A stretch of DNA of 64,000 nucleotides, taken from contig NZ_CP133265.1 in the NCBI RefSeq assembly GCF_030915505.1, forward strand, positions 1,488,001 through 1,552,000. The letters run 5' to 3'. Positions 6,123 to 21,154 of the stretch are shown here, piece after piece. Position numbers and translations under genes: made by a program. The stretch is from Neobacillus sp. OS1-2 (GTDB taxonomy: Bacteria; Bacillota; Bacilli; Bacillales; Cytobacillaceae). The notes under the pieces are model-generated. The model ran no database searches. It worked only from the letters and a program-made list of their open reading frames with translations, and was not told the origin of the DNA. The first letter of the stretch is position 1, and every line of letters starts with the position of its first letter.

Positions 6123-6970
6123 GACTTCACAACCCTTCCAAGTTTATTTTCCAATGTCTCAATGGCATCTAAAATAGCGGCTTCATCGGCTTGATTGGGA
6201 CGGATATGATGATTGTCTGCCTTTTCTTCCAGGTAGGGAACACCTTGGCCTTTAACGGTATCAAGAATAATCGCAACCGGCCCAGCCGTTTGCGCTTTTC
6301 CTTTTTCGATAGCTTCATAGATTTGTTGCAATGAACTGCCGTCTACTTTCAATGTATAAAAACCAAACGCGGCAAATTTTTCCTCAAAATCAAGTGGATC
6401 AATGATATCCTTTGTACGGCCATCCAGCTGCTTCTTATTGTCATCGATAAACACAAAGAGGTGATTCAATTTGTGATGGGCGGCAAATTGAAAGGCTTCC
6501 CAACACTGGCCCTCATTTAATTCACCATCACCCACGATACAATACGTAAAATTATCCTTAGCTGATAGTTTATGAGAAAGGGCTACGCCAACAGCCGCTG
6601 AAATCCCTTGACCTAAAGAACCGGTTGTCATATCCACACCCGGTGTTAAATTTCGATCAGGATGGGAAGGGAGAGTCGTTCCATTTTGGTTTAAGGTATA
6701 AAGCACTTCTTCCGGGAAAAAACCTTTCACCGCCAAGGCGGCATAAAGCCCTGGGCCTCCGTGACCCTTTGATAAAATAAAATAATCACGATCCTCCCAG
6801 TTTGGGTCTTTTGGATCCACCTTCATGACTTGCCCATATAACACCGCCAACGCTTCAACGATCGACAAGCTTCCGCCATAATGACCAAAACCAAGATGGG
6901 ATAACTCCTTTAACGTCATTAGCCGAATTTTATCGCGAAATGTCTCTAGTTTTTGAAGATCCATACTCAT
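6119..6970 (-). CDS. transketolase, N-terminal (TPP-binding) subunit
   Basis: Diphosphate-binding half of the split transketolase, 283 residues from the chosen ATG. The TPP motif runs from GDGELNEGQ (147-155) to the N of IDDNKK (about 178). The His residues of LSKGHGGPG (67-75) and of SHPD (102-105) match conserved active-site positions. The frame stays open seven codons further, to 6991, but AGGGGAGG lies correctly spaced before the ATG at 6970, so I use that start. The two-gene form is typical of sugar-utilisation operons, in contrast to the single 660-residue housekeeping enzyme. A terminator-like hairpin lies upstream (7008-7063), so expression may be lower than that of the PTS genes. Confidence 0.9.
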   Translation of the reverse strand: MSMDLQKLETFRDKIRLMTLKELSHLGFGHYGGSLSIVEALAVLYGQVMKVDPKDPNWEDRDYFILSKGHGGPGLYAALAVKGFFPEEVLYTLNQNGTTLPSHPDRNLTPGVDMTTGSLGQGISAAVGVALSHKLSAKDNFTYCIVGDGELNEGQCWEAFQFAAHHKLNHLFVFIDDNKKQLDGRTKDIIDPLDFEEKFAAFGFYTLKVDGSSLQQIYEAIEKGKAQTAGPVAIILDTVKGQGVPYLEEKADNHHIRPNQADEAAILDAIETLENKLGRVVKS

Positions 6971-7007
6971 GAATAATCCTCCCCTTTTCAATGTTGATAC
7001 CGTGCAA

Positions 7008-7063
7008 GAAAAAAGGCACTCTTAGAGTGGGTCAGAAATCGACTGGAACACCCCAAGAGTACC
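7008..7063 (-). terminator. intercistronic terminator/attenuator
   Basis: On the minus strand a 15-bp stem with G-U pairs (GGTACTCTTGGGGTG with CACTCTAAGAGTGCC) is followed by TTTTTTC, between the IIC gene and the split transketolase. It is strong enough to terminate part of the transcription. Confidence 0.7.
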
Positions 7064-7079
7064 TGAGATTTTTGAAAAA

Positions 7080-8456
7080 TTAAGCGCCGATTTGTTGTGA
7101 GTTATTCCCGTCTTTGCCTTTTTTGAAAATACCGAATACCACTGCAAGTAAGACCAAGCCCACAACGGTAACCGTAACGCCAGTTGCTCCAAACGATTTA
7201 GCCATATTTCCAAGGAAGATGCCCGATGCAGCAAAGTCTGCATCTGAGAAAGTCGTGCTAGCAAATCCTAAGTCGCCAAGAACAGGCATTAAGAAGACTG
7301 GCAGGAAGGTAATCAGCAAACCGTTTGCGAATGAGCCAAGGGTTGCACCGCGGACACCGCCTGTCGCATTACCGAATACACCAGCAGTTGCTCCAGTGAA
7401 GAAATGGGGAACCACACCAGGTAAAATAATGACTTGACCTGTAAGACCGAGGATAATCATCCCGACAATTCCACCCGCGAAGCTTGAGAAGAAACCGATT
7501 AGAACAGCATTTGGTGCATATGGGAAGACAATCGGACAGTCAAGCGCCGGTTTAGAGTTTGGCACAAGTTTATTTGAAATCCCTTTGAACGCAGGAACAA
7601 TTTCAGCTAAGACGAGTCGAACACCGGCAAGGATCACAAATACCCCTGCTGCAAACGTAACCGCCTGAATCAGCGAGAATACAAGATAATGTGTGCCACC
7701 GCTCAATTCTTTTTCGATATAAGATGGACCTGCAAAGAGGGCAATAACCACATAAAGAATAATCATCGTCAACGAAATCGTGACAGAACTATCACGTAAA
7801 AAGCCCAACCCTTTAGGGAAATTGATTTCTTCAGTTGACCGTGAATTTTTTCCGACAGCCTTTCCAACAAGACCTGAAAGAACATAACCTAAGCTGGAAA
7901 AATGCCCAAATCCAACGTGGTCATTACCCGTAATTTTTTTCATAAACGGCTGACAGATGGCCGGGAATACGGCCATGATTAAACCTAAGGCCAGGGAACC
8001 AACAATCACAAGCGGTACACCTTTTAAGCCTGAAACCATTAAGATTACAGCAAGCATACAAGCCATATATAAGGTATGATGTCCGGTTAAGAAGATATAT
8101 TTAAGTCTCGTAAAGCGTGCAATTAAGATATTGGCCAGCATACCGAAGAACATAATAAAGGCGGTCGTGCTGCCATATTTCGTTAAGGCCATCGCCACAA
8201 TTGCTTCGTTGTTCGGTACCACCCCATTTACGTGGAACGCCTCTTGAAACATCTTTCCGAAAGGATCAAGGGAACCAACAATAATCCCGGCCCCGGCACT
8301 AATAACGAGGAAGCCTAAAAAGGTTTTGACCGTACCTTTAATAATGTCACTTAAAGCCTTTTTCTGAATAATAAGTCCAACAAAGGAAATTAACGCAACC
8401 AAAACAGCTGGCGTACTCAAAATATCCATGACTAGTTTAAGAAATCTTTCCCCCAT
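7080..8456 (-). CDS. PTS ascorbate-type (UlaA/SgaT) transporter subunit IIC
   Basis: Membrane permease of the L-ascorbate-type PTS family, 458 residues with about 11 hydrophobic segments, and conserved stretches such as the AGAGIIVGSLDPFG loop and LTGHHTLYM. It carries the sugar through the membrane while IIB phosphorylates it. The frame extends to 8513, overlapping the IIB gene, but AAAGGAGGG six bases before the ATG at 8456 marks the real start and leaves a 34-bp gap to IIB. The co-operonic transketolase suggests a pentose-like or pentitol substrate; ascorbate catabolic genes (UlaD, UlaE, UlaF) are absent, so ascorbate itself is doubtful. Confidence 0.88.
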   Translation of the reverse strand: MGERFLKLVMDILSTPAVLVALISFVGLIIQKKALSDIIKGTVKTFLGFLVISAGAGIIVGSLDPFGKMFQEAFHVNGVVPNNEAIVAMALTKYGSTTAFIMFFGMLANILIARFTRLKYIFLTGHHTLYMACMLAVILMVSGLKGVPLVIVGSLALGLIMAVFPAICQPFMKKITGNDHVGFGHFSSLGYVLSGLVGKAVGKNSRSTEEINFPKGLGFLRDSSVTISLTMIILYVVIALFAGPSYIEKELSGGTHYLVFSLIQAVTFAAGVFVILAGVRLVLAEIVPAFKGISNKLVPNSKPALDCPIVFPYAPNAVLIGFFSSFAGGIVGMIILGLTGQVIILPGVVPHFFTGATAGVFGNATGGVRGATLGSFANGLLITFLPVFLMPVLGDLGFASTTFSDADFAASGIFLGNMAKSFGATGVTVTVVGLVLLAVVFGIFKKGKDGNNSQQIGA

Positions 8457-8490
8457 GGGTAACCCTCCTTTTAATGGCGATGATATTTTT

Positions 8491-8772
8491 TTAAAGCAAT
8501 CCTTTTTGAGCAAGAACCTCTTTTAATTTAGAGCGCAGGCCATCCATATCAATAATGCTTTCGATGACAATCACCTCTCCTAAATGACCCATTCCTTCGG
8601 CAATGTCCTTGGCGGCAATAAAGAGATCCGCTGCATCAGGCGTTGCTGAACTGAGGTCTGAATGTTCGACTTCAATCCCACTAACCCCTAATTCCCCTAA
8701 GATTTGTTGAACATTCATCTCTAACATAAAGCTGCTTCCTAAACCTGATCCACATACGGCTAAAATTTTCAT
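8491..8772 (-). CDS. PTS ascorbate-type subunit IIB
   Basis: A 93-residue cytoplasmic phosphocarrier. The phosphorylatable Cys7 lies in the P-loop-like CGSGLGSS. Usual length for SgaB/UlaB proteins. It receives phosphate from an EIIA and passes it to the sugar bound at IIC. No free-standing EIIA gene is present; the EIIA-like domain of the adjacent regulator (8796-10859) is the only candidate in the operon. GAGGAGG precedes the ATG, and the regulator gene ends 23 bp upstream. Confidence 0.9.
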   Translation of the reverse strand: MKILAVCGSGLGSSFMLEMNVQQILGELGVSGIEVEHSDLSSATPDAADLFIAAKDIAEGMGHLGEVIVIESIIDMDGLRSKLKEVLAQKGLL

Positions 8773-8795
8773 CCTACATTCCTCCTCATTTTTAC

Positions 8796-10859
8796 TTACA
8801 CAACTGCAGAATATTGTTTAAATAAGGCAAAGATTTGATCTGTTGATTCCGTTTCCTTCAGTAAGTCAATGTTGTTTTTCTCACTAAGAAGTTTGGTTAA
8901 TTGTGAAAGCGCCTTGAGATGTGTGGTATTGTCAATGGCGGCAATGCAAAACAGCAAGCGGACAGGATACTTTTCATCCTCTAAAAAATTGACGGGCTGG
9001 TTGAGCTTTAAAAAACTCATGCCCACATGATGAACACCCATTTCCGGCCGTGCATGCGGGATGGCCACTTCTGGACCAATGACCACATAGGGACCCAACG
9101 TTTTAATATTGCCAATCATGGCCTCAATGTAAGAAGACTCAATGATCCCTGTCTCTAGCAGCGGTTTCGCCGCTACTTTTACAGCCTCCTCCCAATCCGA
9201 TACCTGTTCCACAATCTGAACAGTTTCCGCTGTTAATAAATCATTTAACACTGGCTGATTCCCCCTTTGATGCTCCACTTTCTTTTGAAAGGTTAATTGA
9301 CTTAAAGCTGTCTTTAACCCTTTCTCATCATATACATTGGCAAATTTCCCAATGGTTTGGATGAGCTCTTTTACCGAAATATCCTGGTATTGAATCCCAA
9401 ATAAATGCTGATATACCTCATTGACCAAACTGTTCTTTTCATTCGGCGTCATGATCGGCTTCACATAGAAGCATGGAAGGGTCGTGTCAAGCGCAACGGT
9501 CGAAAAAAGAAGATCATAGTGGTCAAGATTCTGTTTTTGGAATTCCTGTAAGGACAGATTTCTTTCAACAGTTATTTCTGAGAAAAGCGATTCCAGCTGG
9601 TGTTTAACCATGAGAGAAGAACTGATCCCGCTCGGACAAACGACAATGGCTCGTTTCTTTTTCGGCATTTCTTGCTTCGGCCTTTTTAACATGGCCCCAA
9701 AATGCATGGTGATAAAACCTATTTCCTCTTCAGGAATCGTGATACTTAACAAGGTGCCAAATGGCTGGAGCATTTCTTTTACAATCGTATAAAGTTCCTT
9801 ATGCTCATGTTTAATTTGCTCAAGAAGCGGATTGTCAATGGGTATTCGATATTTCATTCGAAAATAAGCCGGTTTTAAATGCTGATACAACGAATGAATG
9901 ACTTCGTCTTTTTTCTCAAAAACAATACAGGCTTTAGATTCAAAATCAAACACAAGCTGTTCACATATTTTAAAAAGTAGGTCCCGGTTCATGTCTTGCA
10001 CAAAACGGTTTCCTAAGGACAAGCCAAGTAATTGGATGGTTAAATAACAGAGCTCCGTATCTACTACTTCAAAACGAAGCAGCTCCGATAAGGTTTGTGA
10101 TACCCTCCACATCGGATCCATTTTTACTAATTTCATTTCATCAGCATGGAACGGGACAAATTTTCTCTCCTTTAACCGATAGTGGTAGAAAAGGAGAAAA
10201 TAGGCGAATTGCTTAATCCGTTCTTCGACAAAATGCAACTCGAACTGTGTCTCCATTTGCAAAAGCGTATGATGAATATCCTCGAACGGAATGTGGCCCG
10301 TCCTATTCTTTACTAAATAATCGATTAGTTTTTCAAAATAGGGAACAGATAACACTTGGGATAAACAGTGCATGACGATTACCCTCTTATCAAACTCCGT
10401 TCCTTTTAAATGGTAGCCATTCTGCCGGGAATAGCGGATTTCTACTAGGAATGGCCGGTTCATTTCATTCGCCTTTTTTACATCAGATATAACCGTGTTC
10501 TTACTCACCTGTAATAACTGTGTTAAATGGACTGATGAAATGGGCTCTTCCCGTATAAATAGATAAAGAATGATGAGATTCAATCTTTCCTCTTCTGTTA
10601 AAATAACCTCATGATCCTGGCTGTGATCTTGCTGCTCCCTAAAATAGGCCCCCACCTCTTTCGGTACCTCGATATAGTGGATTCCACGAAAGGGAATGGC
10701 GGGAAGATCTCTTTCCTTTAACCAATGGTTGATTTTCTCTAAATCATAGTAAATTTGCCTTTTCGTTAATTGGGTGTGTTCCATCACCTGATTCATGGTG
10801 GTATTCTTCATTTTTAAAAGGTAATTCAGCAAAAAGGCGGGACGTTTATCAATCATCAT
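8796..10859 (-). CDS. PRD-containing BglG/LicR-type regulator with EIIB- and EIIA-like domains
   Basis: Transcription activator of the downstream PTS genes, 687 residues. Order: two N-terminal helix-turn-helix domains (about 5-130; a TMNQVMEHTQLTKRQIYYDL helix pair is visible), two PTS regulation domains (about 160-390), an EIIB-like domain with Cys in VVCPSGISSS (about 435-445), and a C-terminal EIIA-like domain with the phosphorylatable His in AIPHARPEM. This matches LicR/MtlR activators controlled by HPr and EIIB phosphorylation. The frame runs to 10958, but AGGAGG precedes the ATG at 10859 by 7 bases. It is first in the operon, divergent from the PHP gene. The EIIA domain may also be the phosphate donor for IIB. 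Confidence 0.88.
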   Translation of the reverse strand: MMIDKRPAFLLNYLLKMKNTTMNQVMEHTQLTKRQIYYDLEKINHWLKERDLPAIPFRGIHYIEVPKEVGAYFREQQDHSQDHEVILTEEERLNLIILYLFIREEPISSVHLTQLLQVSKNTVISDVKKANEMNRPFLVEIRYSRQNGYHLKGTEFDKRVIVMHCLSQVLSVPYFEKLIDYLVKNRTGHIPFEDIHHTLLQMETQFELHFVEERIKQFAYFLLFYHYRLKERKFVPFHADEMKLVKMDPMWRVSQTLSELLRFEVVDTELCYLTIQLLGLSLGNRFVQDMNRDLLFKICEQLVFDFESKACIVFEKKDEVIHSLYQHLKPAYFRMKYRIPIDNPLLEQIKHEHKELYTIVKEMLQPFGTLLSITIPEEEIGFITMHFGAMLKRPKQEMPKKKRAIVVCPSGISSSLMVKHQLESLFSEITVERNLSLQEFQKQNLDHYDLLFSTVALDTTLPCFYVKPIMTPNEKNSLVNEVYQHLFGIQYQDISVKELIQTIGKFANVYDEKGLKTALSQLTFQKKVEHQRGNQPVLNDLLTAETVQIVEQVSDWEEAVKVAAKPLLETGIIESSYIEAMIGNIKTLGPYVVIGPEVAIPHARPEMGVHHVGMSFLKLNQPVNFLEDEKYPVRLLFCIAAIDNTTHLKALSQLTKLLSEKNNIDLLKETESTDQIFALFKQYSAVV

Positions 10860-10939
10860 TGCCTTACCTCCTGTAATCATCATACAATAGAGCGTTTTCA
10901 TATAGGTTGCACATTGGGGACAAATGATGTCAGATAAAT

Positions 10940-10990
10940 CAGACAAAATTGGACTCAACCCTATTTTGTCTGAAGCAGGGGACGGTTCTT
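10940..10990. repeat. hairpin plus dispersed GAAGCAGGGGACGG repeat
   Basis: A perfect 10-bp inverted repeat (CAGACAAAAT, 10940-10949, with ATTTTGTCTG, 10963-10972) runs into TGAAGCAGGGGACGGTTCTT (10971-10990). The second part recurs at 29444-29466 (inverted) and 33046-33065. Function unknown. Confidence 0.6.
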
Positions 10991-11062
10991 GTGCTCCAAG
11001 GTTGCCAAGATCGAAAGTTTAATAAAAAATAGATACATAGATATCTTTCAGGGGGAAGCATT

Positions 11063-11851
11063 ATGTACTTAATGGATTATCATCATCACACCAACCATTC
11101 ATTTGATTCTACTGCCATAATGGAAGAAGTTTGTAGGAGAGCATTAGAAAATCATATAAATGAGATCTGTTTTACTGAGCATTTCTCCGTTAACCCGCTT
11201 GCACCCACCTATGGTCATATGAATTTCGCAAAGTATTTTAGCGAAATTCGCGATTGTCAGGAGCAATTTCACGGCCGATTAACCATTAAGGCTGGGATCG
11301 AACTGTGCGAGCCTCACCTGTTAATGGATCAATATGCGCAAACGCTTAGAACTCTGCATCTAGATTTCATTTTAGGCTCCGTCCATAATATCAACAACCA
11401 AAAGCTCCGACTTGTTGGGAAAGAACATCACCAACATGCCTATCAGCTCTATTTTGAGGAACTGTTTAAAATGGTATCAGTTGCAGATATTGATGTGATC
11501 GCGCATTTTGATTTAATGAAACGCTATAGCTATAAAGAATTTGGAAACTATCTATTTGAGGACTATCAGGAGATTATCGAGCAAATTTTAAAAAAGTCGA
11601 TTGAACGGAATATTGGCATTGAAATCAATACTTCTGGTCTTAGGACAAGTTTGAAGGAAACCCTGCCATCCATGAATATTATCCGACGATACAGAGAATT
11701 AGGTGGAGAAATCTTAACCATCGGCTCAGACTCGCACAAAGCTGAAACAGTCGGTGCTAACCTAGTAGAAGCCTATCGCATGGCGAAGGAATGCGGTTTT
11801 CATACTATTTACAAGTTTGATAGAAGGAAAGCCATACCCGTAGAGCTTTAA
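11063..11851 (+). CDS. PHP-domain histidinol-phosphatase family protein
   Basis: Cytoplasmic metal-dependent phosphoesterase of 262 residues, related to HisJ/HisK histidinol-phosphatases. All PHP metal motifs are visible: DYHHHTNHSFD (5-15), CFTEHF (36-41), KAGIELCE (about 75-82), GSVHN, IAHFDLMKRY, and near the end IGSDSHK. The ribosome site CAGGGGGAAG precedes the ATG. No histidine biosynthesis gene is near, so the true substrate may be another phosphomonoester. It is transcribed away from the PTS regulator and followed directly by a tandem repeat array that begins at its stop codon. Confidence 0.82.
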   Translation: MYLMDYHHHTNHSFDSTAIMEEVCRRALENHINEICFTEHFSVNPLAPTYGHMNFAKYFSEIRDCQEQFHGRLTIKAGIELCEPHLLMDQYAQTLRTLHLDFILGSVHNINNQKLRLVGKEHHQHAYQLYFEELFKMVSVADIDVIAHFDLMKRYSYKEFGNYLFEDYQEIIEQILKKSIERNIGIEINTSGLRTSLKETLPSMNIIRRYRELGGEILTIGSDSHKAETVGANLVEAYRMAKECGFHTIYKFDRRKAIPVEL

Positions 11852-12213
11852 TAGACTCTCAGTGATTGGTCCTTCATCAAGGCTATGATGGACTAATCTT
11901 TAATAGACTCCCTGCGATTCGTCCTTCATCGAGGCTATGATGGACTAATCTTTAATTGAATGACTGCGATTTGTTCTTCATCGAGGCTATGAAAGACTAA
12001 TCTTTAATAGAATCCCTGTGATTCGTCCTTCATCGAGGCTATGATGGACTAATCTTTAATAGAATCCCTGCGATTCGTCCTTCATCGAGGCTTTGATGGA
12101 CTAATCTTTAATAGACTCTCAGTGATTTGTTCTTCATCGAGGTTATGATGGACTAATCTTTAATAGACTCTCTGTGATTTGTTCTTCATCGAGGTTATGA
12201 TGGACTAATCTTT
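11850..12213. repeat. seven-copy 52-bp tandem repeat, each unit a hairpin
   Basis: Seven head-to-tail units of exactly 52 bp (starts 11850, 11902, 11954, 12006, 12058, 12110, 12162). Each has an inverted repeat: GATTNGTCCTTCAT and ATGATGGACTAATC around a CGAGGCT-type loop, giving a 14-bp stem with two mismatches. Units differ at a few positions. In unit 3 the right arm changes to ATGAAAGACTAATC, restoring one pair while losing another. No spacers, so not CRISPR; all frames are interrupted, so not coding. The array starts within the stop codon of the PHP gene. Confidence 0.9.
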
Positions 12214-12292
12214 CAGAAATGGCCTTGTCTGTTGCAGGTGAATCATTCCATAGACTGCGAGGATAGTCCATTACACTTATAGGTGGGCATGT

Positions 12293-12379
12293 ATGAGCAA
12301 CGAATCTATCCTCCGTTTAAGTCATGTGACCAAACAAATTGGCAGGAAAACCATCTGCATTAGTTGGTGGGTTGCTTAG
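12293..12379 (+). pseudogene. fragment resembling the N-terminus of an ABC ATPase
   Basis: After AGGTGGG, an ATG opens 28 codons reading MSNESILRLSHVTKQIGRKT, then ends in TAG. The first twenty residues resemble the start of ABC transporter ATP-binding subunits (LRLSHVTKQIG), but the Walker A region is absent. It is probably the stub of a deleted ATPase gene. The neighbouring BMP lipoprotein lacks its own ATPase and permeases, but a link is only a guess. It could also be a chance ORF. Confidence 0.35.
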
Positions 12380-12650
12380 AAACTACCTGCTCCTTTCTTT
12401 GCTTGAACAATTGCCGTCTCTACTTATTTCTCAGCAAAAGCCCATTAAATCATCCGCACAACGGCTACAGATCTTTTTTGAGTTTCATTTCTCCATCTGG
12501 CGCTTATATTAGGTAAGAGAATGATCCCACTGGGGTGACAAGTAGTAAAAAAGGGAGTATAATCAAAACATAAGTTTTGGTTTTAAACAAAAGTTTACAC
12601 AAACCCAAACTTACCTTTTTATTTCATACATCATAGGGAGGCATACTATT
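12380..12650. other. promoter region of the BMP lipoprotein gene
   Basis: No coding content. An AT-rich stretch with GGAGTATAATC (about 12553-12563) offers a TATAAT-like -10, and the AAGTTT/AAACTT-rich segment 12570-12612 resembles a set of imperfect inverted repeats. No known operator was recognised. Confidence 0.35.
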
Positions 12651-13718
12651 TTGAAAAAGCGTAAAGTTGGAGCGGCACTAGCACTAGTTCTTGCTGCAGG
12701 TACATTATTAGGTGCTTGTGGAAAAAGTAATGATAGCAATGGCGGAGACAATGAAAAAGGTTTCTCCGTAGCAATGGTTACCGACGTTGGTGGTGTCGAT
12801 GACAAATCGTTTAACCAATCTTCTTGGGAAGGTCTTCAAAAATTCGGAAAAGAAAATGGACTTAAGGAAGGTAAAGGCGGTTATGAATACCTTGCCTCTA
12901 AATCAGATGCTGATTATACAACCAACCTAAATGCTCTCGTTCGTCAAAAGTTTGACTTAGTATACGCGATTGGTTTCTTAATGCCGGCAGCGGTTGAGGA
13001 AATTGCCAAACAACAAAAGGATAATAAGTTTGCCATCGTAGATGCAGAAGTAAAGCAGCCAAACGTAGCAAGCATTCTATTCAAAGAACAAGAAGCAGGA
13101 TTCCTTGCAGGAGTGGCAGCTGCCCTTACCACAAAATCGAATCAAATCGGATTTATTGGCGGGATGGAAGTTCCGGTAATCGAACGATTTAATGTTGGCT
13201 TTTTAGCTGGCGTGAAAGCGGCAAAACCAGAAGTGAAAGTCGATGTTCAATATGCCGGTGCGTTTGACAAGGCGGAGGTTGGACAAGCCATCGCATCTAA
13301 AATGTATTCCTCAGGTACGGACGTCATCTTCCACGCTGCAGGCGCTACGGGTGTCGGTCTGTTCAAGGAAGCCAATGACCGCAAGAAAAAAGACCCAAGC
13401 AAAGATTTTTGGGCAATTGGGGTAGACCGTGACCAAGCAGATATGGGCGCAGACATTGTCCTTACATCCGCCTTAAAACGCGTGGATGTAGCGGTTAATG
13501 ACCTTGCAACGAAAACAAAGGATGGTCATTTCCCTGGTGGCAAGGTTGCGCTTTACGGCTTAGCAGAAGATGGAGTTGGCCTAGCACCAATTAACGACAA
13601 AGTAGCAAACAAAGCTGAAATTGAAGCTTCTGTAAAAGAATGGATAGAAAAGATTAAATCAGGCGATTTACAAGTTCCAGAAACACAAGATGAATTAAAA
13701 ACATTTAGTGTAAAATAA
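12651..13718 (+). CDS. BMP-family substrate-binding lipoprotein
   Basis: Membrane-anchored binding protein of the basic membrane protein (BmpA/PnrA/Med) family, 355 residues, which usually binds purine nucleosides for ABC import. The signal peptide ends in the lipobox LGAC with lipidated Cys23. Family stretches include VAMVTDVGGVDDKSFNQSSWEG (split: DVGGVDD, 46-52; KSFNQS, 53-58) and the VDRDQAD segment late in the protein. The start codon is TTG, supported by ATAGGGAGG upstream. No ATPase or permease genes adjoin it, unlike the four-gene nupNOPQ-type operon, so it may feed a transporter encoded elsewhere. A strong terminator follows. Confidence 0.9.
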   Translation: MKKRKVGAALALVLAAGTLLGACGKSNDSNGGDNEKGFSVAMVTDVGGVDDKSFNQSSWEGLQKFGKENGLKEGKGGYEYLASKSDADYTTNLNALVRQKFDLVYAIGFLMPAAVEEIAKQQKDNKFAIVDAEVKQPNVASILFKEQEAGFLAGVAAALTTKSNQIGFIGGMEVPVIERFNVGFLAGVKAAKPEVKVDVQYAGAFDKAEVGQAIASKMYSSGTDVIFHAAGATGVGLFKEANDRKKKDPSKDFWAIGVDRDQADMGADIVLTSALKRVDVAVNDLATKTKDGHFPGGKVALYGLAEDGVGLAPINDKVANKAEIEASVKEWIEKIKSGDLQVPETQDELKTFSVK

Positions 13719-13724
13719 GAAGAA

Positions 13725-13760
13725 AAGCACAAGCGCCCTAGTCGCTGGAGCTGGACATTC
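13725..13760 (+). repeat. possible dispersed intergenic repeat (single copy here)
   Basis: The segment containing CAAGCGCCCTAGTCGCTGG and GAGCTGGACA resembles a repeat I recall between genes in Bacillaceae genomes. Only one copy is in this window, so the call rests on memory. Confidence 0.3.
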
Positions 13761-13793
13761 TCAAAGTCGAAAAATTTATACATTTTTAAAGAA

Positions 13794-13830
13794 AAACCTG
13801 TGTAGATAATGATTCTACACAGGTTTTTTA
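13794..13830. terminator. bidirectional intrinsic terminator
   Basis: A perfect 13-bp stem (AAACCTGTGTAGA and TCTACACAGGTTT, 7-base loop) is flanked by A residues on the left and T residues on the right. It can serve both the BMP gene (plus) and the PfkB gene (minus), which converge here. Confidence 0.9.
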
Positions 13831-13846
13831 ATGGGATTCCTTTTTA

Positions 13847-14938
13847 TCATGAATACTCACTTATGATTTCATCAATTTTTTCAGGCTTGAGAAAGGACGA
13901 GATAGATTCTTCCGTTTGAAGGGTAAGAACCGCACCAGCTAGGCCTAATTGGCAAGCACGAACGAGCGATTCCCCATTCATCATGCCGTAAATGGCACAT
14001 GACGCAAATGCCTCCCCCGCTCCAGTGACATCGACAACATCCCTTTTGAAAGGAAGCAAATGCCCAGATTCCTCAGTAGAAAAGTAATAAACCCCCTGAT
14101 CAGCAAGTGTGATCATCACCTTTTGAACGCCACGCTGACCTAGTTTTCCACAGGCTGTGTGACAATCCTTGACTGCATCAATTTTCATATCCGTAAGGGT
14201 CTCCGCCTCTTCACGATTTAAAATCAGAAGTTCGACACCGTCAAGACGAGCAGGAAGTTTTCGTGCCTTAACTGGAGAGACAGGTTCAATATAAATAGGG
14301 ATATGTACATCGCTGCAGCGTTTAATGACGTAACGGATACATTCCTCAGGGATATTTGTATCCAAAAACACGGCAGTCGAGGCACTGATATGGGACCATT
14401 TTTCCTCAAACATGGAAGTGGTTAGTTTCTCATAGATATTCATATCAGCCATGGAGACCACGCTTTCACCTGTAATATCCAAAAGGGTAGTAAACGTCCC
14501 TGTTTGTTCGGTTGGCAGCACCCATACCTGACTAACATCCACTCCCTGACTTTTCGTTTCCTTCAGGATCCAGTTCCCTTCTTTGTCATCTCCGACACAG
14601 GCCATCAGTGAGGTAGTCAGCCCAAGCCGACTTAAACTTTCAGCCACGTTGCGTGCTACACCGCCACACGCCTCCGTGATTTTTACGGGGTTAGATGAAT
14701 ACAGTCGCACCTTTTGATTGGTCCGCGCTTTCCGGTCTGTATTGGCTCCCCCAATACAAACAATTGCCGATTCCTCGCGAAGAATATAGCCACGTCCTTT
14801 GATCTCACCGCGTTTCATCAGACTGGCAATATAATTAGCAACAGCAGGCCGTGACAAACCAACCTTATTTGATAACTCCTGCTGTGAAATGAAAGGATTC
14901 ATTTTTATGTAATGTAAAATTTGAGCCTCTTTATCCAT
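13847..14938 (-). CDS. PfkB-family sugar/nucleoside kinase with N-terminal winged helix
   Basis: A 363-residue fusion of a helix-turn-helix (about 1-52; ELSNKVGLSRPAVANYI is the DNA-binding unit) and a ribokinase-like kinase (60-363), an arrangement known from YeiC/pseudouridine-kinase relatives. Kinase landmarks are CIGGANTDRK (61-70), ACGGVARNVAE (90-100) and VTGAGEAFASC (304-314). The last motif normally reads GAGD, the Asp being the catalytic base; here it is Glu309. The start is the ATG at 14938 behind AAGGAGG; the frame extends 13 codons upstream. A 16-bp palindrome lies upstream (15026-15041) and could be its own operator. Substrate unknown. Confidence 0.85.
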   Translation of the reverse strand: MDKEAQILHYIKMNPFISQQELSNKVGLSRPAVANYIASLMKRGEIKGRGYILREESAIVCIGGANTDRKARTNQKVRLYSSNPVKITEACGGVARNVAESLSRLGLTTSLMACVGDDKEGNWILKETKSQGVDVSQVWVLPTEQTGTFTTLLDITGESVVSMADMNIYEKLTTSMFEEKWSHISASTAVFLDTNIPEECIRYVIKRCSDVHIPIYIEPVSPVKARKLPARLDGVELLILNREEAETLTDMKIDAVKDCHTACGKLGQRGVQKVMITLADQGVYYFSTEESGHLLPFKRDVVDVTGAGEAFASCAIYGMMNGESLVRACQLGLAGAVLTLQTEESISSFLKPEKIDEIISEYS

Positions 14939-15025
14939 GGGATAACCTCCTTGAAGCTGTGAAGTGAAGCAGGGCACTGTTCTTTTGCATCGTTTTTCCC
15001 TTCTATTGGAACAACCTGACAGTTA

Positions 15026-15041
15026 TTTCATTATAATGAAA
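15026..15041. promoter_or_regulatory. 16-bp perfect palindrome between pfkB-like and brnQ genes
   Basis: TTTCATTATAATGAAA is a perfect palindrome containing TATAAT in both directions, lying between divergent genes. It could be a shared -10 or an operator for the adjacent HTH-kinase. Assignment is inferred. Confidence 0.45.
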
Positions 15042-15182
15042 AAAGCCATTTCAAAAAAGGATTTCTGTAATTTATTTAGCGAGGTGAGCGATACGCACGT
15101 ATTGTGGAGCGGGGAATAGCTATAGCTTCCTCTCAAAAAAGGTGTTAAAATGGGTGGAATTCATCTTAGAAGGAGCACGGGT

Positions 15183-16535
15183 ATGCAGCAAAAAATATCA
15201 TTTTCAACCTATGCCATTATTGGTACAATGCTATTCGGCATGTTCTTTGGGGCAGGAAACTTAATCTTCCCTATCCAAATGGGGCAACTCGCTGGTACGA
15301 ACTTTTGGCCGGCTTTAATTGGCTTCCTTGTAACCGCGATCGGTCTGCCATTTTTGGGGATTTTAGCATTCGGCTTATCCGGGAGTAATGGATTACGTGA
15401 TTTAGCGGGGCGCGTCCATCCCTTATTTGGAGTCGTCTTCGCCATGGCCCTTTACTTAACCATCGGACCATTTTTCGCCATTCCACGGACAGCAACGGTT
15501 CCCTTCGTCGTCGGGTTTGAACCGTATATGAACCCAGCGCACGGCCGTTTATATCTCGCGCTTTTTAGCTTTGGATTTTTTGCAATCGTTTATTATTTCT
15601 CATTGAATCCAGCGAAAATTATCGATTATATCGGAAAGTATTTAACCCCGGCATTTTTACTATTTTTATTCATCTTAATTGTCATTGCCATCGTGAAACC
15701 GATGGGTCACTTCGGTAACCCGACTGGTGACTATCGTGACCTGGCTTTTATTACCGGTTTTAAAGAAGGGTACAACACGATGGATGCGCTCGCCTCCCTT
15801 GCCTTTGGGATTGTCGTCATCCATGCGATTAAGGGACAAGGTATCACCGATCCGAGAACAATCGCGAAAGCCACATGGAAATCGGGCATTTTCGCCATGG
15901 TCCTAATGATGCTGATTTATGGACTGATTACCTATATGGGTGCATCGAGCGTATCAGCCATCGGGACATTCGATAACGGCGGGTTGATTTTCGCAGCCGT
16001 TGCACAGCATTATTTCGGATCCTTCGGCTCAATTTTATTAGCGATTATTATCGTCCTTGCCTGTTTAAAAACAAGCATCGGGTTGATTACGTCGTGCAGC
16101 GAGTTTTTTCACAGTATTTTTCCAAAAATAAGCTATAAAATCTTCGTTCTAGTACTGTGCCTTGTCTCATTGATCATTGCCAACTTCGGGTTAACCAATA
16201 TTATTCAATACGCGGTACCGGTCTTAATGCTAGTGTATCCATTAGCCATTGTCCTGATTGTATTAGCCCTTTGTTCGTCATTGTTCGGCCATAAACAGAG
16301 CGTTTATGCATCTGCCATGTTTTTCACTTTTTGTGTTAGCTTCTTCGACGGCTACAGCACGTTAGTCGCCAGTTTACCAAGTGCAACTGTCCCTATATTC
16401 GATTCCATTAAATCGTTCTACATGGATACCTTACCACTTTACGATATTGGGCTTGGTTGGATGCTGCCGGCTTTAGTTGGTGCGGTTATCGGCTATTTCT
16501 GGCCAACGAACGCTAAAAAAGTGGCTGGTAACTAA
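15183..16535 (+). CDS. brnQ: branched-chain amino acid:cation symporter BrnQ
   Basis: Membrane carrier of the LIVCS family importing leucine, isoleucine and valine with Na+ or H+. The 450 residues hold about 12 membrane helices. The N-terminal FGAGNLIFPIQMGQLAG (about 20-36) is the family hallmark, and ITDPRTIAKATWKSG follows in mid-protein. The ATG at 15183 is preceded by AGAAGGAG; the frame opens 11 codons earlier without a ribosome site. I found no T-box leader or obvious CodY box upstream. Monocistronic, ending at a perfect stem-loop shared with the converging signal peptidase gene. Confidence 0.93.
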   Translation: MQQKISFSTYAIIGTMLFGMFFGAGNLIFPIQMGQLAGTNFWPALIGFLVTAIGLPFLGILAFGLSGSNGLRDLAGRVHPLFGVVFAMALYLTIGPFFAIPRTATVPFVVGFEPYMNPAHGRLYLALFSFGFFAIVYYFSLNPAKIIDYIGKYLTPAFLLFLFILIVIAIVKPMGHFGNPTGDYRDLAFITGFKEGYNTMDALASLAFGIVVIHAIKGQGITDPRTIAKATWKSGIFAMVLMMLIYGLITYMGASSVSAIGTFDNGGLIFAAVAQHYFGSFGSILLAIIIVLACLKTSIGLITSCSEFFHSIFPKISYKIFVLVLCLVSLIIANFGLTNIIQYAVPVLMLVYPLAIVLIVLALCSSLFGHKQSVYASAMFFTFCVSFFDGYSTLVASLPSATVPIFDSIKSFYMDTLPLYDIGLGWMLPALVGAVIGYFWPTNAKKVAGN

Positions 16536-16603
16536 ATCAACTGAAGAAATTGGAGAATATCCGCAATAATGCATTGACTAATTTGTTCCTCAACAACAGT
16601 ATG

Positions 16604-16640
16604 CTAAACAACCCATAAATGTGGGTTGTTTAGTCATTAT
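16604..16640. terminator. hairpin between convergent brnQ and signal peptidase genes
   Basis: A perfect 12-bp stem (CTAAACAACCCA and TGGGTTGTTTAG, 6-base loop) sits between two convergent genes. The T-tract is weak on the + side, so efficiency is uncertain. Confidence 0.7.
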
Positions 16641-16646
16641 TCATAC

Positions 16647-17192
16647 CTATCTACTACCAAATGGAATGATTGAGATCATCGTTTCCCCTATTATGGCATC
16701 CCTAGAGATTTGACCAATTTCAGTACTTCTGCTGTCCAAACTTTCACCTGGTGTACGATTATCCCCCATAATGAAATAAAATCCCTTTTCCACTTTCGTT
16801 TCAGGCATATCATTTGATTTGCCAGTGGTAAAAGGCTCCTTCACTGGTTTTCCATTTACATATACAACGCCACCCTTTATACCCACTGTCTCACCAGGTA
16901 ATGCGATAATTCGTTTTATGATATTAAATCCGCTTTGGTTTTTTACGATAACAACATCATTTCTTTCTACTTTATAGAACAGATTACTGGTTAGGACAAC
17001 ATCCCTATTATCATATGTTGGATTCATCGAGTTTCCATCAATGATTGTTATGCCAAAAACAAATCGGAAAATAAAAATGACTACGATTAACGATAGAATA
17101 AATTTGATCCAACTTAGTATGGATGACATCTGCTTTGGTCTAGACTTTAAAGTAATATCAACGGACTGTATTTCATCCCCAACGGTTCGCAT
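16647..17192 (-). CDS. type I signal peptidase (SipS/SipW-like position)
   Basis: Membrane-bound serine protease that removes signal peptides, 181 residues. One N-terminal span (about 26-48), then catalytic Ser55 in GNSMNPT, Lys93 in KRIIALPGE, and the MGDNRTPGESLDSR box. The Ser/Lys dyad is that of prokaryotic-type enzymes, unlike SipW, which is ER-type. The ATG at 17192 overlaps the TAA of an alternative frame of the upstream gene (TAATG), with AGGTGGG as ribosome site. It is the last gene of an operon of three secreted proteins, so it is likely a dedicated processing enzyme for them; that role is inferred from linkage. Confidence 0.9.
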   Translation of the reverse strand: MRTVGDEIQSVDITLKSRPKQMSSILSWIKFILSLIVVIFIFRFVFGITIIDGNSMNPTYDNRDVVLTSNLFYKVERNDVVIVKNQSGFNIIKRIIALPGETVGIKGGVVYVNGKPVKEPFTTGKSNDMPETKVEKGFYFIMGDNRTPGESLDSRSTEIGQISRDAIIGETMISIIPFGSR

Positions 17193-17246
17193 TAATTCCC
17201 ACCTGCATTTACTGGTTTTTGTTCTTCATATTTAATAGGAGTTTCC

Positions 17247-17735
17247 TCAACCACCTTGGTTGGGTTTTTTTTCTCCCTTATCAGCTTTTGCGATTGTATC
17301 CATTTTTTCAATTGCCTCATTTTGGATAGTATTGAGTTGATTTATAACGGCTGCCTTTTCTGAAGAATGATCAACCTTTAGATTTTTTATTAATTCATCC
17401 GTATGAGCTTTCAAGTCTTTTATTCGCTGCTTTTTTTCTTTCTCTGTGAATTGGTCCATCTGTTGTTTCGCATTGGTCATTTCTAGTTGCAACTCTTCTT
17501 TTAAACGCTGCAGTTGAATTTCCTTTTCAGACATAATGGCCTTTTCAATGGTCTCAATCGACTTCGCTTGTTGATTAGCAAACCAATTTCCCAACGATCC
17601 CTCGATATCCTGGTCTGCAAATGCAACGGTAATACTGCTGCCTACCCCCATGCTTAAAAAAAGAGTTCCAAGTAGTAACTTTGCCCTTTTTGATATTTTA
17701 TTCTGCTTGAATTGTTCCTTCCTGCTTTTCATCAT
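17247..17735 (-). CDS. secreted coiled-coil protein, third paralogue, possible slippage at its end
   Basis: Uncharacterised 162-residue exported protein. A long signal peptide ends in VAFA, giving a mature start DQDIEGSLGNWFANQQ. The rest is highly charged and helical with heptad-like spacing, rich in Lys, Glu and Gln and without Cys. The L-x2-W-[FY] signature is shared with the two genes upstream. In the frame given it ends KKPNQGG just after a run of eight A residues (17265-17272, complement). One A fewer would extend it through NPTKVVEETPIKYEE to NAGGN, stopping at 17192 on the signal peptidase ATG. AAAGGAGG precedes the start. Probably an extracellular structural or adhesive subunit. Confidence 0.7.
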   Translation of the reverse strand: MMKSRKEQFKQNKISKRAKLLLGTLFLSMGVGSSITVAFADQDIEGSLGNWFANQQAKSIETIEKAIMSEKEIQLQRLKEELQLEMTNAKQQMDQFTEKEKKQRIKDLKAHTDELIKNLKVDHSSEKAAVINQLNTIQNEAIEKMDTIAKADKGEKKPNQGG

Positions 17736-17755
17736 TTCAGTCCTCCTTTAAAACA

Positions 17756-17784
17756 GCAGGGGCTCAACTAATATGAGACCCTGC
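17756..17784 (-). terminator. intercistronic hairpin (attenuator) in the secreted-protein operon
   Basis: On the minus strand GCAGGGTCTCA and TGAGCCCCTGC form an 11-bp stem with one mismatch, followed by TGTTTT, between the second and third genes. It would reduce transcription of the third subunit and the peptidase relative to the 255-residue protein. Confidence 0.55.
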
Positions 17785-17811
17785 CAGGTTTGCTTCCATA
17801 ACCTATATTTA

Positions 17812-18579
17812 TTAAATACCAGCTACTGCTGCGGCCAAATCAGCTTCTGCTTTAGCTTGAAGTTCCTGAGCTTTAGCAGCGATTAGATCCTGTTGAGCCT
17901 TTACTAAATCATTTTTCTTTGCAGTGATGGTACCACGTAGTTCATCAATTTTGCGGTCGATAATGTGTTTAATATTATCAACTCTTGAAGCTGATGCATC
18001 ATCAAGTTGTTTTTGAAGATCCGCTTTTGCAGCCACAATTGCTGCTTGTAAATCTGATACAGCTTGTTGACTAGATGCATTTAATTCATTAGTTAATTGT
18101 GTTTTTGCAGCAGATCCTTTATCACCAGTAAGTTTTGTTAAATCTTTATTTGCAAAATCAATGGCTAGGAGCCCTACTTGGCCAATAATCGTGTCTGCAG
18201 CCTGTTGAATTCCATCAAATTGACTCTGTAGATGATTTTGAATGGCTAGTTTCTGAGCCGCTAATGCATCAAGATGTTCATTTTTAGCATTCGTGATAGC
18301 TGTATTTGCCGCAGCTGTTTCTGCAGTTTTTGTACCATTGATGCTAGTAACCGCAGCTGATCTTAGGCCATTATATTCGTTAATTAATGCAGGAGCTTTT
18401 TTCACAGCATAATCTGTTGTTTGTGTTTGAATAGATGCTGCCGATTTCCCGAATTGTGAATTATACCAGTTTTGTAGGTTTGTTCCTGCATCCGTACTTG
18501 CAAATGCTACTCCTACACTTGAAAGTAATCCTACTGCTACCGCACCTGATAATACTTTTGTTTTAAATGACTTTTTCAT
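17812..18579 (-). CDS. secreted alanine-rich coiled-coil protein, second paralogue
   Basis: Uncharacterised 255-residue exported protein, the largest of three paralogues. The signal peptide (about 1-27) ends VAFA; the mature N-terminus STDAGTNLQNWYNSQFGKS carries the shared L-x2-W-Y element. The remainder is Ala-, Lys-, Gln- and Asp-rich with no Cys or Pro-rich segment. It is predicted by composition to be one long amphipathic helix or helical hairpin, with repeats such as DLQAAIVAAKADLQKQL. GAGGAAG precedes the ATG. A hairpin after it suggests it is the most abundant product. Fibre or matrix subunit is the favoured guess; no enzyme motif is visible. Confidence 0.72.
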   Translation of the reverse strand: MKKSFKTKVLSGAVAVGLLSSVGVAFASTDAGTNLQNWYNSQFGKSAASIQTQTTDYAVKKAPALINEYNGLRSAAVTSINGTKTAETAAANTAITNAKNEHLDALAAQKLAIQNHLQSQFDGIQQAADTIIGQVGLLAIDFANKDLTKLTGDKGSAAKTQLTNELNASSQQAVSDLQAAIVAAKADLQKQLDDASASRVDNIKHIIDRKIDELRGTITAKKNDLVKAQQDLIAAKAQELQAKAEADLAAAVAGI

Positions 18580-18647
18580 TTTTAAATCTTCCTCTCTTAT
18601 TTGTGTTTTATATTTTAGAATTTGCGATAAACAAATTCAGGAATACC

Positions 18648-19082
18648 TTATTCCCCTAATACTTCTGAAAGCATTTCTTCAACATCAGCTGTCATTTCAG
18701 CATCTAATGTCACTTTTTCATTTTCAGCGTGCACATCAAACCCATTTTTCTCAAGCTCAGCTTTAGCCTTATTTAATCGAGATTGATACTCCTTCTGATG
18801 GTTTTCAATGCTGCTTTTCGACTGATTAAGAGCAGTCAGGAGGAATGACCCAATATCGGACGCAGCTTGATTCTTTTCAACACGCTGCAGTTCTTTAGTA
18901 GTGTCTTTTATTTCCTGCAACCCTTTTTCTTCCACCTGTATAGTGGTATCGCTGCTTATTTGGTAGGCGGTGCTATACCATTTTTCCAGTTGTGCAGCTA
19001 CATCTTGGTTTGCCATAACAGAAACAACAGAAACTGAGGAAATAGCTACGAATGTCAGTATGGATTTTTTTAATTTATTCAT
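18648..19082 (-). CDS. secreted helical protein, first paralogue
   Basis: Uncharacterised 144-residue exported protein and first gene of the operon. The signal peptide ends SVMA; the mature start NQDVAAQLEKWYSTAYQ has the same L-x2-W-Y element as the two downstream paralogues. The body is helical and charged, ending with the acidic TADVEEMLSEVLGE. A GTG at 19085 and an ATG at 19082 compete; the spacing of GAGGG favours the ATG. The leader is long, with the candidate promoter about 215 bp upstream together with SinR-like and other palindromes. Confidence 0.7.
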   Translation of the reverse strand: MNKLKKSILTFVAISSVSVVSVMANQDVAAQLEKWYSTAYQISSDTTIQVEEKGLQEIKDTTKELQRVEKNQAASDIGSFLLTALNQSKSSIENHQKEYQSRLNKAKAELEKNGFDVHAENEKVTLDAEMTADVEEMLSEVLGE

Positions 19083-19221
19083 CACGATCCCTCACTTTCT
19101 CTTTATGGACTTGTATAATGAATGGATGAAGCCGTTCTTTTTAAGCTATACCTTTCAATACACACAAAAATCTAAGCAAGTCGTATGGAAGTAGTCATCC
19201 TCCTTTATCACACCTTTTGAA

Positions 19222-19249
19222 AATAATGTTTGATTTAACGAACATTATT
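19222..19249. promoter_or_regulatory. 9-bp inverted repeat in the leader of the secreted-protein operon
   Basis: AATAATGTT and AACATTATT flank a 10-base centre, giving a perfect palindrome that also carries a GTT-N8-AAC core similar to that at 19312-19328. It could be an operator or an RNA hairpin in the leader. Confidence 0.5.
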
Positions 19250-19279
19250 TTCCCTTTCTTAAATATTCTAGGATGTTTT

Positions 19280-19295
19280 GTTCTTTTTAAAGAAC
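19280..19295. promoter_or_regulatory. SinR-like operator (inverted GTTCTTT heptamers)
   Basis: GTTCTTT-TT-AAAGAAC is a perfect inverted repeat of the SinR consensus GTTCTYT with the 7-2-7 spacing I recall for SinR-bound duplexes. Another GTTCTTT is at 19134-19140. It lies about 11 bp downstream of the candidate -10 of the secreted-protein operon, a suitable place for repression. The match is by eye; whether this genome encodes SinR is not shown here. Confidence 0.6.
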
Positions 19296-19305
19296 TTATG
19301 AATTG

Positions 19306-19334
19306 AGTATAGTTCAATATATCGAACTTGGAAA
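19306..19334 (-). promoter_or_regulatory. candidate sigma-A promoter with palindromic spacer
   Basis: On the minus strand TTTCCA (-35, weak) is followed by 17 bp and TATACT (-10). The spacer is almost exactly the near-palindrome AGTTCGATATATTGAACT, with one mismatched pair. A related half-palindrome occurs at 19439-19456. Inferred to drive the three secreted-protein genes and the signal peptidase. Confidence 0.45.
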
Positions 19335-19587
19335 CCACCGGATTTAGTCATATTTTCCTATTTGGGGTGATTTTCGCCTCTTTTACTCCAATTTTCTTCC
19401 TTTTTCTTAATATTTCTCACTTTATTAAGAATATTTATGTTCGTTATATTGAATTATCATAAAAAGCAAAAATTCTTAAGAATACTAGCAATACTATTTG
19501 TCATTTGCAGGTCTACTGAATTGGGAAGATTTTTATGTTGCCAAAATGGAGGTACTGATGATATTATGGTGAAATGTTATAACTAAG

Positions 19588-19624: not shown

Positions 19625-21154
19625 ATGGAAAACATCAATTCAACTCATACACGCCCGCCATATGGGATCCTTGCCATTCTCATGATTGGGGCATTTATTG
19701 CCATGTTAAACGAAACACTCTTAAATGTGGCACTCCCTTCCATCATGAAGGATTTAGATGTCGGCGCGTCGACTGTACAATGGCTCTCGACAGGTTATAT
19801 GCTTGTTAATGGAATTATGATTCCAGCCACTGCTTTTTTAATTCAAAGATACTCTGTAAGAGGTTTATTCCTAACTGCCATAAGTTTATTTACTGTTGGG
19901 ACCTTTCTTGCGGGATTCTCCACCGTCTTCTCTGTCTTGTTAGTTGCACGACTCATCCAAGCGGCAGGATCTGCCATCATGATGCCGCTATTAATGAACG
20001 TCATGTTAACAAGCTTTCCACCTGAAAAAAGGGGCGGAGCGATGGGGCTTTTCGGTCTGATCTTTATTTTTGCACCGGCTGTCGGTCCAACATTGTCCGG
20101 CTGGATGATTGAACATTACGACTGGCGGATGTTATTCCACTTTGTTTCGCCGATTGCCGTCATTGTTTTACTCATCGGGATTTTCTTACTAAAAGATAAG
20201 AAGGAAAAAGTCGAAATCCAGCTTGACTTCCTCTCGCTATTGTTATCAAGTCTTGGCTTTGGCGGTTTGCTTTATGGATTTAGCTCTGCCGGTGATAAGG
20301 GCTGGGATAGTCCACTCGTTTATGGCACGATTATCGTTGGCACCATTTCATTAATTCTGTTTATCCTACGTCAATTTAAGCTGGAAAAACCGATGCTGGA
20401 ATTCAGAATCTATAAATACCCAATGTTTGCCCTATCGTCAGCTATTTCAGTTGTCATTGCGATGGCGATGTTTTCAGCGATGTTGCTTTTACCCATCTAT
20501 GTTCAATCATTACGCGGGATCTCTCCAATGAAATCGGGCTTGATGATGCTTCCAGGGGCTATTTTAATGGGGATCATGTCACCGATTACGGGGAAATTAT
20601 TTGATAAGTTTGGTGGCCGTGTTTTAGCGATTATCGGTCTTACGATTACAGTTGTAACCAGCTATTTCTTCAGTAAGCTGACACTGGATACCTCTTATTC
20701 TCACTTAATTTTATTATATTCAGCACGTATGTTTGGAATGTCGATGGTCATGATGCCTGTTATGACCAATGGCTTAAACCAATTACCGGCGCGGTATTAT
20801 CCGCACGGGACAGCAATGAATAGTACATTGCAGCAAGTGTCGGGCGCAATTGGTTCAGCACTGCTCGTCACCATCATGACCAATCGGACAAAAACACATG
20901 CGGAGGATCTAGGTGCAGCTGCCATGAAACACTTAACAGGGAAACCTACCCCAGCTGTGTTAGCTGAAATGAAGCAACAAATTGCCACGAAAGCCATGCT
21001 GGAGGGAATTAATGATTCCTTCGTTGTTTCTGCAGGAATTGCTTGTGTGGCTCTCATCCTTGCTTTCTTCATTAAACGCGCTAAACAAGCAGATGATCCA
21101 GTAGAAGTGAAACCATCCGAACAAAAAGTTGTTAATACATTAGTTGAAAATTAA
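19625..21154 (+). CDS. MFS drug efflux pump, DHA2 (EmrB/QacA) family
   Basis: Proton-coupled multidrug exporter of 509 residues with about 14 membrane helices. Motifs: NETLLNVALPSI near residue 29 (family motif D1), LVARLIQAAGSAIMMPL (motif C-like region, about 106-122), and the inter-half GKLFDKFGGR loop (motif A-like). Closest in style to LmrB/MdtP-type pumps of Bacillus. AAGGAGG precedes the ATG by 6 bases. It stands alone, with an operator-like palindrome before it and a strong terminator after it. Substrate cannot be read from sequence. Confidence 0.9.
   Translation: MENINSTHTRPPYGILAILMIGAFIAMLNETLLNVALPSIMKDLDVGASTVQWLSTGYMLVNGIMIPATAFLIQRYSVRGLFLTAISLFTVGTFLAGFSTVFSVLLVARLIQAAGSAIMMPLLMNVMLTSFPPEKRGGAMGLFGLIFIFAPAVGPTLSGWMIEHYDWRMLFHFVSPIAVIVLLIGIFLLKDKKEKVEIQLDFLSLLLSSLGFGGLLYGFSSAGDKGWDSPLVYGTIIVGTISLILFILRQFKLEKPMLEFRIYKYPMFALSSAISVVIAMAMFSAMLLLPIYVQSLRGISPMKSGLMMLPGAILMGIMSPITGKLFDKFGGRVLAIIGLTITVVTSYFFSKLTLDTSYSHLILLYSARMFGMSMVMMPVMTNGLNQLPARYYPHGTAMNSTLQQVSGAIGSALLVTIMTNRTKTHAEDLGAAAMKHLTGKPTPAVLAEMKQQIATKAMLEGINDSFVVSAGIACVALILAFFIKRAKQADDPVEVKPSEQKVVNTLVEN

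Follow-up and report, generated by a model that had tools for sequence, protein, structure and literature searches.

We describe a four-gene operon in a 64,000-nucleotide (nt) stretch of the Neobacillus sp. OS1-2 genome (contig NZ_CP133265.1, positions 1,488,001 to 1,552,000; hereafter the window, whose own coordinates are used below). The operon runs on the minus strand from a promoter at about 19334 down to 16647, its gene order being read from the open reading frames (ORFs), and encodes three exported, mutually paralogous proteins, which we call subunits 1 to 3, followed by a type I signal peptidase. Its promoter closely matches that of the tasA set in the same genome and carries two SinR-type inverted repeats. 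With modest confidence we read this as an operon of the SinR-type switch whose helical proteins would form a matrix or surface polymer, and the secreted helical set probably supplies biofilms with a second type of building material, unrelated to the known fibre proteins. We infer the fibre or matrix role from the regulation, the genomic linkage and the type of protein. A first-pass annotation of this DNA had proposed an analogue of the SinR/tapA-sipW-tasA system with unrelated subunits and a dedicated peptidase; it had noted neither the second palindrome, nor the near-identity to the tasA promoter, nor the paralogy of the three proteins.

The promoter is predicted from a -35 hexamer, TTTCCA (19329-19334, minus strand), whose position is backed by alignment with the tasA promoter, and a -10 hexamer, TATACT (19306-19311, minus strand). 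The pair gives 9/12 promoter matches with a 17-nt spacer, and such matches are no rarer in shuffled sequence (6 found against 9.8 expected). Operator 1, GTTCTTTAAAAAGAAC, is an inverted repeat of the SinR type on the downstream side of the -10 hexamer (19280-19295, minus strand), and operator 2, which reads GTTCGATATATTGAAC on the coding strand, fills the spacer between the two hexamers (19312-19327, minus strand). The perfect palindrome first annotated at 19280-19295, GTTCTTTTTAAAGAAC, is indeed exact. Counted alone, palindromes of this kind are within chance: with up to two mismatches allowed, the window holds two sites where 0.74 would be expected, a number also attained in 15 of 100 shuffles. 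The unusual point is their placement, as the pattern GTTCNWTNNAWNGAAC occurs at only two places in the whole 4.73 Mb genome (the reversed pattern is commoner, at four per strand) and both sit in this one promoter, 32 base pairs (bp) apart. Because GTTCNWTNNAWNGAAC excludes the form of the tasA site, that site does not enter the genome-wide count.

The sites also fit what has been published for SinR itself. In PMC3163267 the SinR consensus is given as GTTCTYT boxes, best as an inverted repeat, and Bacillus subtilis SinR binds the 22-mer TTTGTTCTCTAAAGAGAACTTA with a dissociation constant (Kd) of 300 nM. Positions 19277-19298 are identical to this oligonucleotide, as given there, at 18 of 22 positions, and of the four mismatches two fall on Y/R consensus positions and two on the central pair. 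Inverted GTTCTYT repeats overlapping the promoter, the feature by which SinR-controlled promoters are recognised, are found here. The leader further holds a perfect 12-bp inverted repeat with a GTTCGTT half site (19219-19252, minus strand), which differs by one base in the closest relative (locus L024) and could be either a third operator or an RNA hairpin.

When positions 19270-19345 were compared with the genome by BLAST, the best non-self match was C1:149048-149107 (83% over 60 bp, E 1.5e-11), and the next reached only E 0.048; the third match of this search (C1:917436) was rejected, as it lies inside a gene. The best match is the promoter of a tasA-tapA-sipW set, beside which a SinR-like gene runs in the opposite direction. 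In an NCBIfam scan of this set TapA (153.8 bits) and SipW (279.2 bits, NF046067) scored above their cut-offs and TasA (105.6 bits) below its own, and all PF12389 (TasA/CalY) copies of the genome lie outside the operon. The arrangement of TATACT, exactly 10 nt and then the palindrome is common to the operon, the tasA gene of the same genome, the tapA gene of locus L040 and 10 other operon loci. The tasA set closes with a gene for a protein with an LPxTATN-type sorting signal (NF058670; L048, 3052-3696).

The genome holds a sinR orthologue (C1:2973274-2973591; PDB 1b0n, E 8.7e-38), whose absence would have told against the first-pass proposal, and beside it a 44-aa (amino acid) ORF whose best match among solved structures is SinI (E 6.5e-4). 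Together with the tasA-tapA-sipW set and the tasA-like promoter, these support the regulatory half of the proposed analogy. The palindromes could instead be read by a different XRE-type repressor, which might be the SlrR-like protein encoded next to tasA or one encoded locally. This would leave a biofilm operon under another switch. The genome has two SinR-like proteins, the one beside tasA (116-118 aa) fits the SlrR model best (90 bits, below the cut-off of 250), and the palindrome's core varies in its bases from genus to genus, all of which would suit such a repressor. The close fit of the site to the SinR oligonucleotide in PMC3163267 speaks against it, and we consider it somewhat unlikely.

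The first three genes of the operon were confirmed on the minus strand as encoding exported proteins of predicted helical type: subunit 1 (18648-19085; 145 aa from a GTG start, or 144 aa from the ATG at 19082), subunit 2, a long-helix protein that served as the query for searches (17812-18579, 255 aa), and subunit 3 (17247-17735, 162 aa). In each, an A-x-A-type site follows a hydrophobic stretch near the N-terminus (best mean hydropathy over 19 residues 1.78, 2.04 and 1.76). The three are paralogues: when the relatives of each subunit (33 rows per group) were compared as profiles, hhalign gave probabilities of 98.0, 99.6 and 96.4%. Across the 146 family members, whose mature start was set by pattern and not by a signal-peptide program, 125 have a Trp shortly past the A-x-A-type cleavage site, typically in D-x-G-x-x-L-x-x-W-[YF], 143 are Cys-free in the mature part, and Pro makes up 0.8%; the subunits are rich in Glu, Ala, Leu and Lys. 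The C-terminal tail of subunit 3 is frame-shifted against its nearest relative. The shift lies near an A-rich run (17200-17320) and leaves 162 aa where the L024 protein has 179 aa, and the altered end would look the same under sequencing error, decay or phase variation.

Placement of the subunits in a known, unrelated family would have told against the first-pass proposal. No Pfam or NCBIfam family scored above cut-off for any of the three, Pfam gave no PF12389 match at E up to 1, the NCBIfam scan showed no SipW-type signal peptide (TIGR04088) in them, and PHROGs gave no match for two subunits and, for the 162-aa protein, only weak matches to two families without a known function. We ascribe the weak matches in these libraries, such as DLP_helical (E 0.0014, which does not reach its cut-off) and phrog_6203 (E 3e-4), to coiled-coil noise. 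The family profile matched no solved structure at E up to 0.01. An AlphaFold2 model of the 255-aa protein, built from two sequences only, is all-helical (helices 30-43, 47-194 and 197-254, plus the signal peptide; mean predicted local distance difference test score (pLDDT) 68.5, predicted template modelling score (pTM) 0.44), and that of the 162-aa protein is poor (mean pLDDT 50.6). From these weak models and the composition the subunits are likely elongated and helical. We also compared them with CapP/DUF4047 (PF13256), using 8 of 12 fetched loci (the other four lay on the opposite strand), and rejected it as a relative: there was no Pfam match and the hhalign probability was 0.4-1.5%. By sequence, the three subunits are unrelated to TasA, TapA and CapP/DUF4047.

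Proteins of this composition could also act as surface-active amphipathic helices forming a coat or wetting layer and not fibres, as a helical counterpart of BslA, which is not itself a helical protein. The Glu/Ala/Leu/Lys-rich, Cys-free sequences, nearly all without a hydrophobic segment past the signal peptide, would suit such a coat, and the better Foldseek shape matches include a dimeric apolipoprotein A-IV chain (template modelling score (TM) 0.53), which at E 0.18 is not significant. Foldseek returned no structural match at E up to 0.001, and we regard a surface coat as improbable. Three exported paralogues behind a SinR-type site might also be a secreted effector, such as a multi-part helical pore former, and PMC3909190 describes SinR control of an enterotoxin operon in B. 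thuringiensis. Pfam gave no toxin family for the three subunits at E up to 1, and the operon lies beside matrix genes in two lineages. An effector is disfavoured because in 144 of the 146 members no segment beyond the signal peptide exceeds a mean hydropathy of 1.6, and a pore former would be expected to have one; we consider it very improbable.

The last gene of the operon (16647-17192, minus strand, 181 aa) encodes a P-type (Ser/Lys) type I signal peptidase, which agrees with the first annotation of this gene as not SipW-like. Its family matches are PF10502 (E 2.7e-32) in Pfam and TIGR02227 (E 1e-34) in NCBIfam; in the latter scan only TIGR02227 passes its cut-off, and the SipW-type families TIGR02228 and NF046067 do not appear. 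Alignment to a solved signal peptidase shows the P-type Ser and Lys motifs, and the sequence carries G-x-S-M-x-P-T, K-R-x-I-x-L-P-G-E and GDNR...DSR. In a tree made with the peptidases of one genome as outgroup and with the SipW-type genes left out, 31 operon peptidases, that of the window included, form one clade (support 90/97) apart from the host's four other strong S26 peptidases. A peptidase gene was found at 30 of 47 fetched operon loci (described below), and in 19 of these 30 it is the last gene. Calling the peptidase dedicated to the operon, as had been proposed, would rest on this linkage and the separate clade; the linkage holds only for those 30 loci.

The operon is conserved in relatives. 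The 255-aa query matched in 18 of 151 family genomes (6 of 25 genera), and a query with the family alignment A1 matched in 35 of 397 order genomes (16 of 135 genera), or 33 genomes and 15 genera without two weak partial matches (G068, G230). All matches of both draws except the own genome and these two were fetched, giving 47 loci from 47 genomes, and the holders are scattered over at least 19 genera. At 45 of the 47 loci at least three family genes stand in tandem; the exceptions are L109 and a decayed copy in G142 (L039, 8071-8602), a genome without a TasA match, where a stop codon and gene fragments are seen and the operator is kept. A contig scan with the single protein, whose reach is limited to close relatives, gave one locus, and tblastn gave no match to the 255-aa protein on plasmids. 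Beyond the order, in a sample of 398 genomes of the phylum, 10 besides the own genome gave nothing more than short or partial matches (E 3e-7 to 1e-3), which were not counted as relatives.

For the operator, 49 clusters were compared (the 47 loci plus the window, L040 counted as two). Of the 49 operon leaders, 25 contain an exact GTTC-N8-GAAC, compared with 18 of 456 control leaders, which belong to other genes at the same loci. Six of these 18 lie in the same intergenic region as the operon leader, and another four are leaders of sinR-, tapA- or tasA-type genes. The loci are kin, so these counts are not independent; the palindrome-bearing leaders fall in 8 of 19 genera. The module of a -10 hexamer, 10 nt and GTTC-N8-GAAC has 20 matches in 786 kb (fetched loci plus stretches of the own genome), and the mirrored pattern has none. 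Of these matches, 13 (that of the window among them) precede operon genes, one tapA and two tasA, 16 in all. Three of the remaining four are those palindromes again, read on the opposite strand, and the fourth (L120) precedes nothing. In several copies of the genus g47 the palindrome has a G/C-richer core and lies 12 nt past a TATAGT box.

The operon is also linked to the known matrix genes. It adjoins tapA-sipW-tasA at 2 of the 47 loci: in L040 (G016) the operon and an extra 360-aa member follow tapA-sipW-tasA-tasA within an island of about 12 kb (5776-17858) that also holds sinR-like genes, three of them full-length and a fourth present as a fragment, and in L096 (G350) a tasA-tapA-sipW set is convergent with the operon. 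A sinR-like gene lies near the operon at 11 of 47 loci, namely all nine fetched g47 loci, L040 and L102. Larger family members occur as well: the first gene of the L040 operon encodes 368 aa, this and the 360-aa member both have a C-terminal extension, and the operon of genus g47 (L114-L123 without L115) includes members of 352-399 aa.

A PF12389 match was found in 38 of 48 operon genomes and none in 10, and here the subunits' relation to TasA itself must be weighed. They could be helpers of the TasA fibre, such as chaperones, anchors or cross-linkers comparable to TapA or CapP, with no polymer of their own. The promoter shared with tasA, the adjacency to tapA-sipW-tasA in two lineages and the frequent co-occurrence would fit a helper, as would the example of CapP in B. 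cereus: this secreted protein, under SinR control and with an N-domain predicted to be helical, acts in this way according to PMC13082335. Set against this are the 10 genomes without PF12389, of which, it must be said, eight also have no operon peptidase and one (G142) has the decayed operon, and the lack of sequence kinship to DUF4047/CapP. We judge a helper role unlikely. A complete operon in a genome without TasA was found in G057 and G279 only.

Several observations weigh against a SinR-switched matrix operon or narrow its scope. Twenty-four of the 49 clusters have no exact palindrome; 14 of these have a site with one mismatch and ten not even that. One-mismatch sites are common in the control leaders (96 of 456), and because of this, control by SinR is unsupported in some genera, g4 and g53 among them. 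The tasA loci compared came from 30 of the 38 genomes with a match. Of these 30 tasA genes only 6 show an exact palindrome within 450 bp and another five a one-mismatch site; many of the genes are not first in their operon. Since 146 of the 151 family genomes carry sinR, finding it here lends no special support, and a co-occurrence test is uninformative. We consider regulation by SinR or an SlrR-like paralogue very probable. The structure models are weak and silent on polymers. As to the peptidase, 17 of 47 loci have none nearby, including all nine of genus g35, and its clade has a bootstrap of 90, below 95, in a tree with a very long branch in one outgroup row. The eight peptidase-less genomes among the 10 without TasA/CalY lowered our estimate for the broader proposal, which we now put forward tentatively: that the order holds a second, all-helical class of matrix, with three paralogous subunits, usually a P-type peptidase of its own and TasA's switch and promoter, and independent of TasA in some species.

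If the operon does make a matrix or surface polymer, we envisage the following. In motile or growing cells SinR or the SlrR-like paralogue would occupy both inverted repeats, that in the spacer of the -35 and -10 hexamers and that directly past the -10, silencing the operon along with tasA. SinI would remove the repressor, and the three paralogous proteins, Cys-free after the signal peptide, Pro-poor, predicted to form long helices and carrying L-x-x-W-[YF] just past the cleavage site, would then be made and exported. The co-transcribed P-type peptidase would cut them, and the cut subunits may build an extracellular, all-helical polymer of the matrix or surface, which would work alongside TasA and, in some species, in its absence. 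The analysis establishes the order of the genes, their conservation and paralogy, the promoter shared with tasA, the existence of sinR, sinI and tasA in the genome, and linkage to tasA and sinR in relatives; repressor binding, processing by the operon peptidase, polymer assembly and the biofilm role are inferred.

Work on Bacillus biofilms rests on TasA, exopolysaccharide and BslA. Should our reading be correct, about 1 in 12 sampled genomes of the order (33 of 397) would carry another SinR-type matrix system, unnamed in the family libraries searched, and nature would provide an extracellular assembly made of helices only, with its own processing enzyme. The promoter shared with tasA predicts shared derepression.

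Around the operon, a 14-bp hairpin (16603-16634, assigned to no strand) lies between the ends of the operon and of a convergent gene (15150-16535), putatively a transporter gene, and may be a terminator. The divergent gene on the other side (19625-21154) encodes an EmrB-type efflux protein (TIGR00711). Elsewhere in the own genome there are further small clusters with weak SipW-like S26 matches, one just left of the window (L189, 1274-3279) and one in L190 (3389-5114); the latter also has a PF12389 match of 40 bits, and the secreted proteins of the former are similar by reading only.

Among known systems, the closest are the tapA-sipW-tasA and sipW-tasA/calY operons of Bacillus, with which the present operon shares a near-identical promoter bearing SinR-type inverted repeats and a multi-subunit set of small exported proteins together with a signal peptidase. 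It differs from them in having no PF12389 or TapA protein and no SipW-type signal peptide, in that its peptidase is of the P-type Ser/Lys kind, and in that its subunits are predicted to be all-helical and are paralogues of each other. CapP (BC1280, DUF4047) of the B. cereus group is likewise SinR-controlled, secreted and tasA-linked, with an N-domain predicted as a helical bundle (PMC13082335). It shows no detectable homology to the subunits (hhalign probability below 2%), and the traits given there as its own are C-terminal repeats, cross-beta assemblies and SipW as the named peptidase. The operon peptidase resembles other P-type S26 signal peptidases in its PF10502 and TIGR02227 matches and Ser/Lys motifs, and differs from the host's four other S26 enzymes in falling in its own clade and being tied to the operon. 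Multi-part pore formers of the Hbl kind are set apart by a family hidden Markov model match and a hydrophobic mature segment; the subunits give no such match at E up to 1, and the segment is missing in 144 of the 146 family members. BslA, a secreted biofilm surface component (PMC10903470), is a possible analogue in role. Literature searches, with subscription papers and preprints mostly outside their coverage, returned no description of such an operon. SinR-controlled matrix operons that include a signal peptidase are an already known kind, and what is new here is the protein family.

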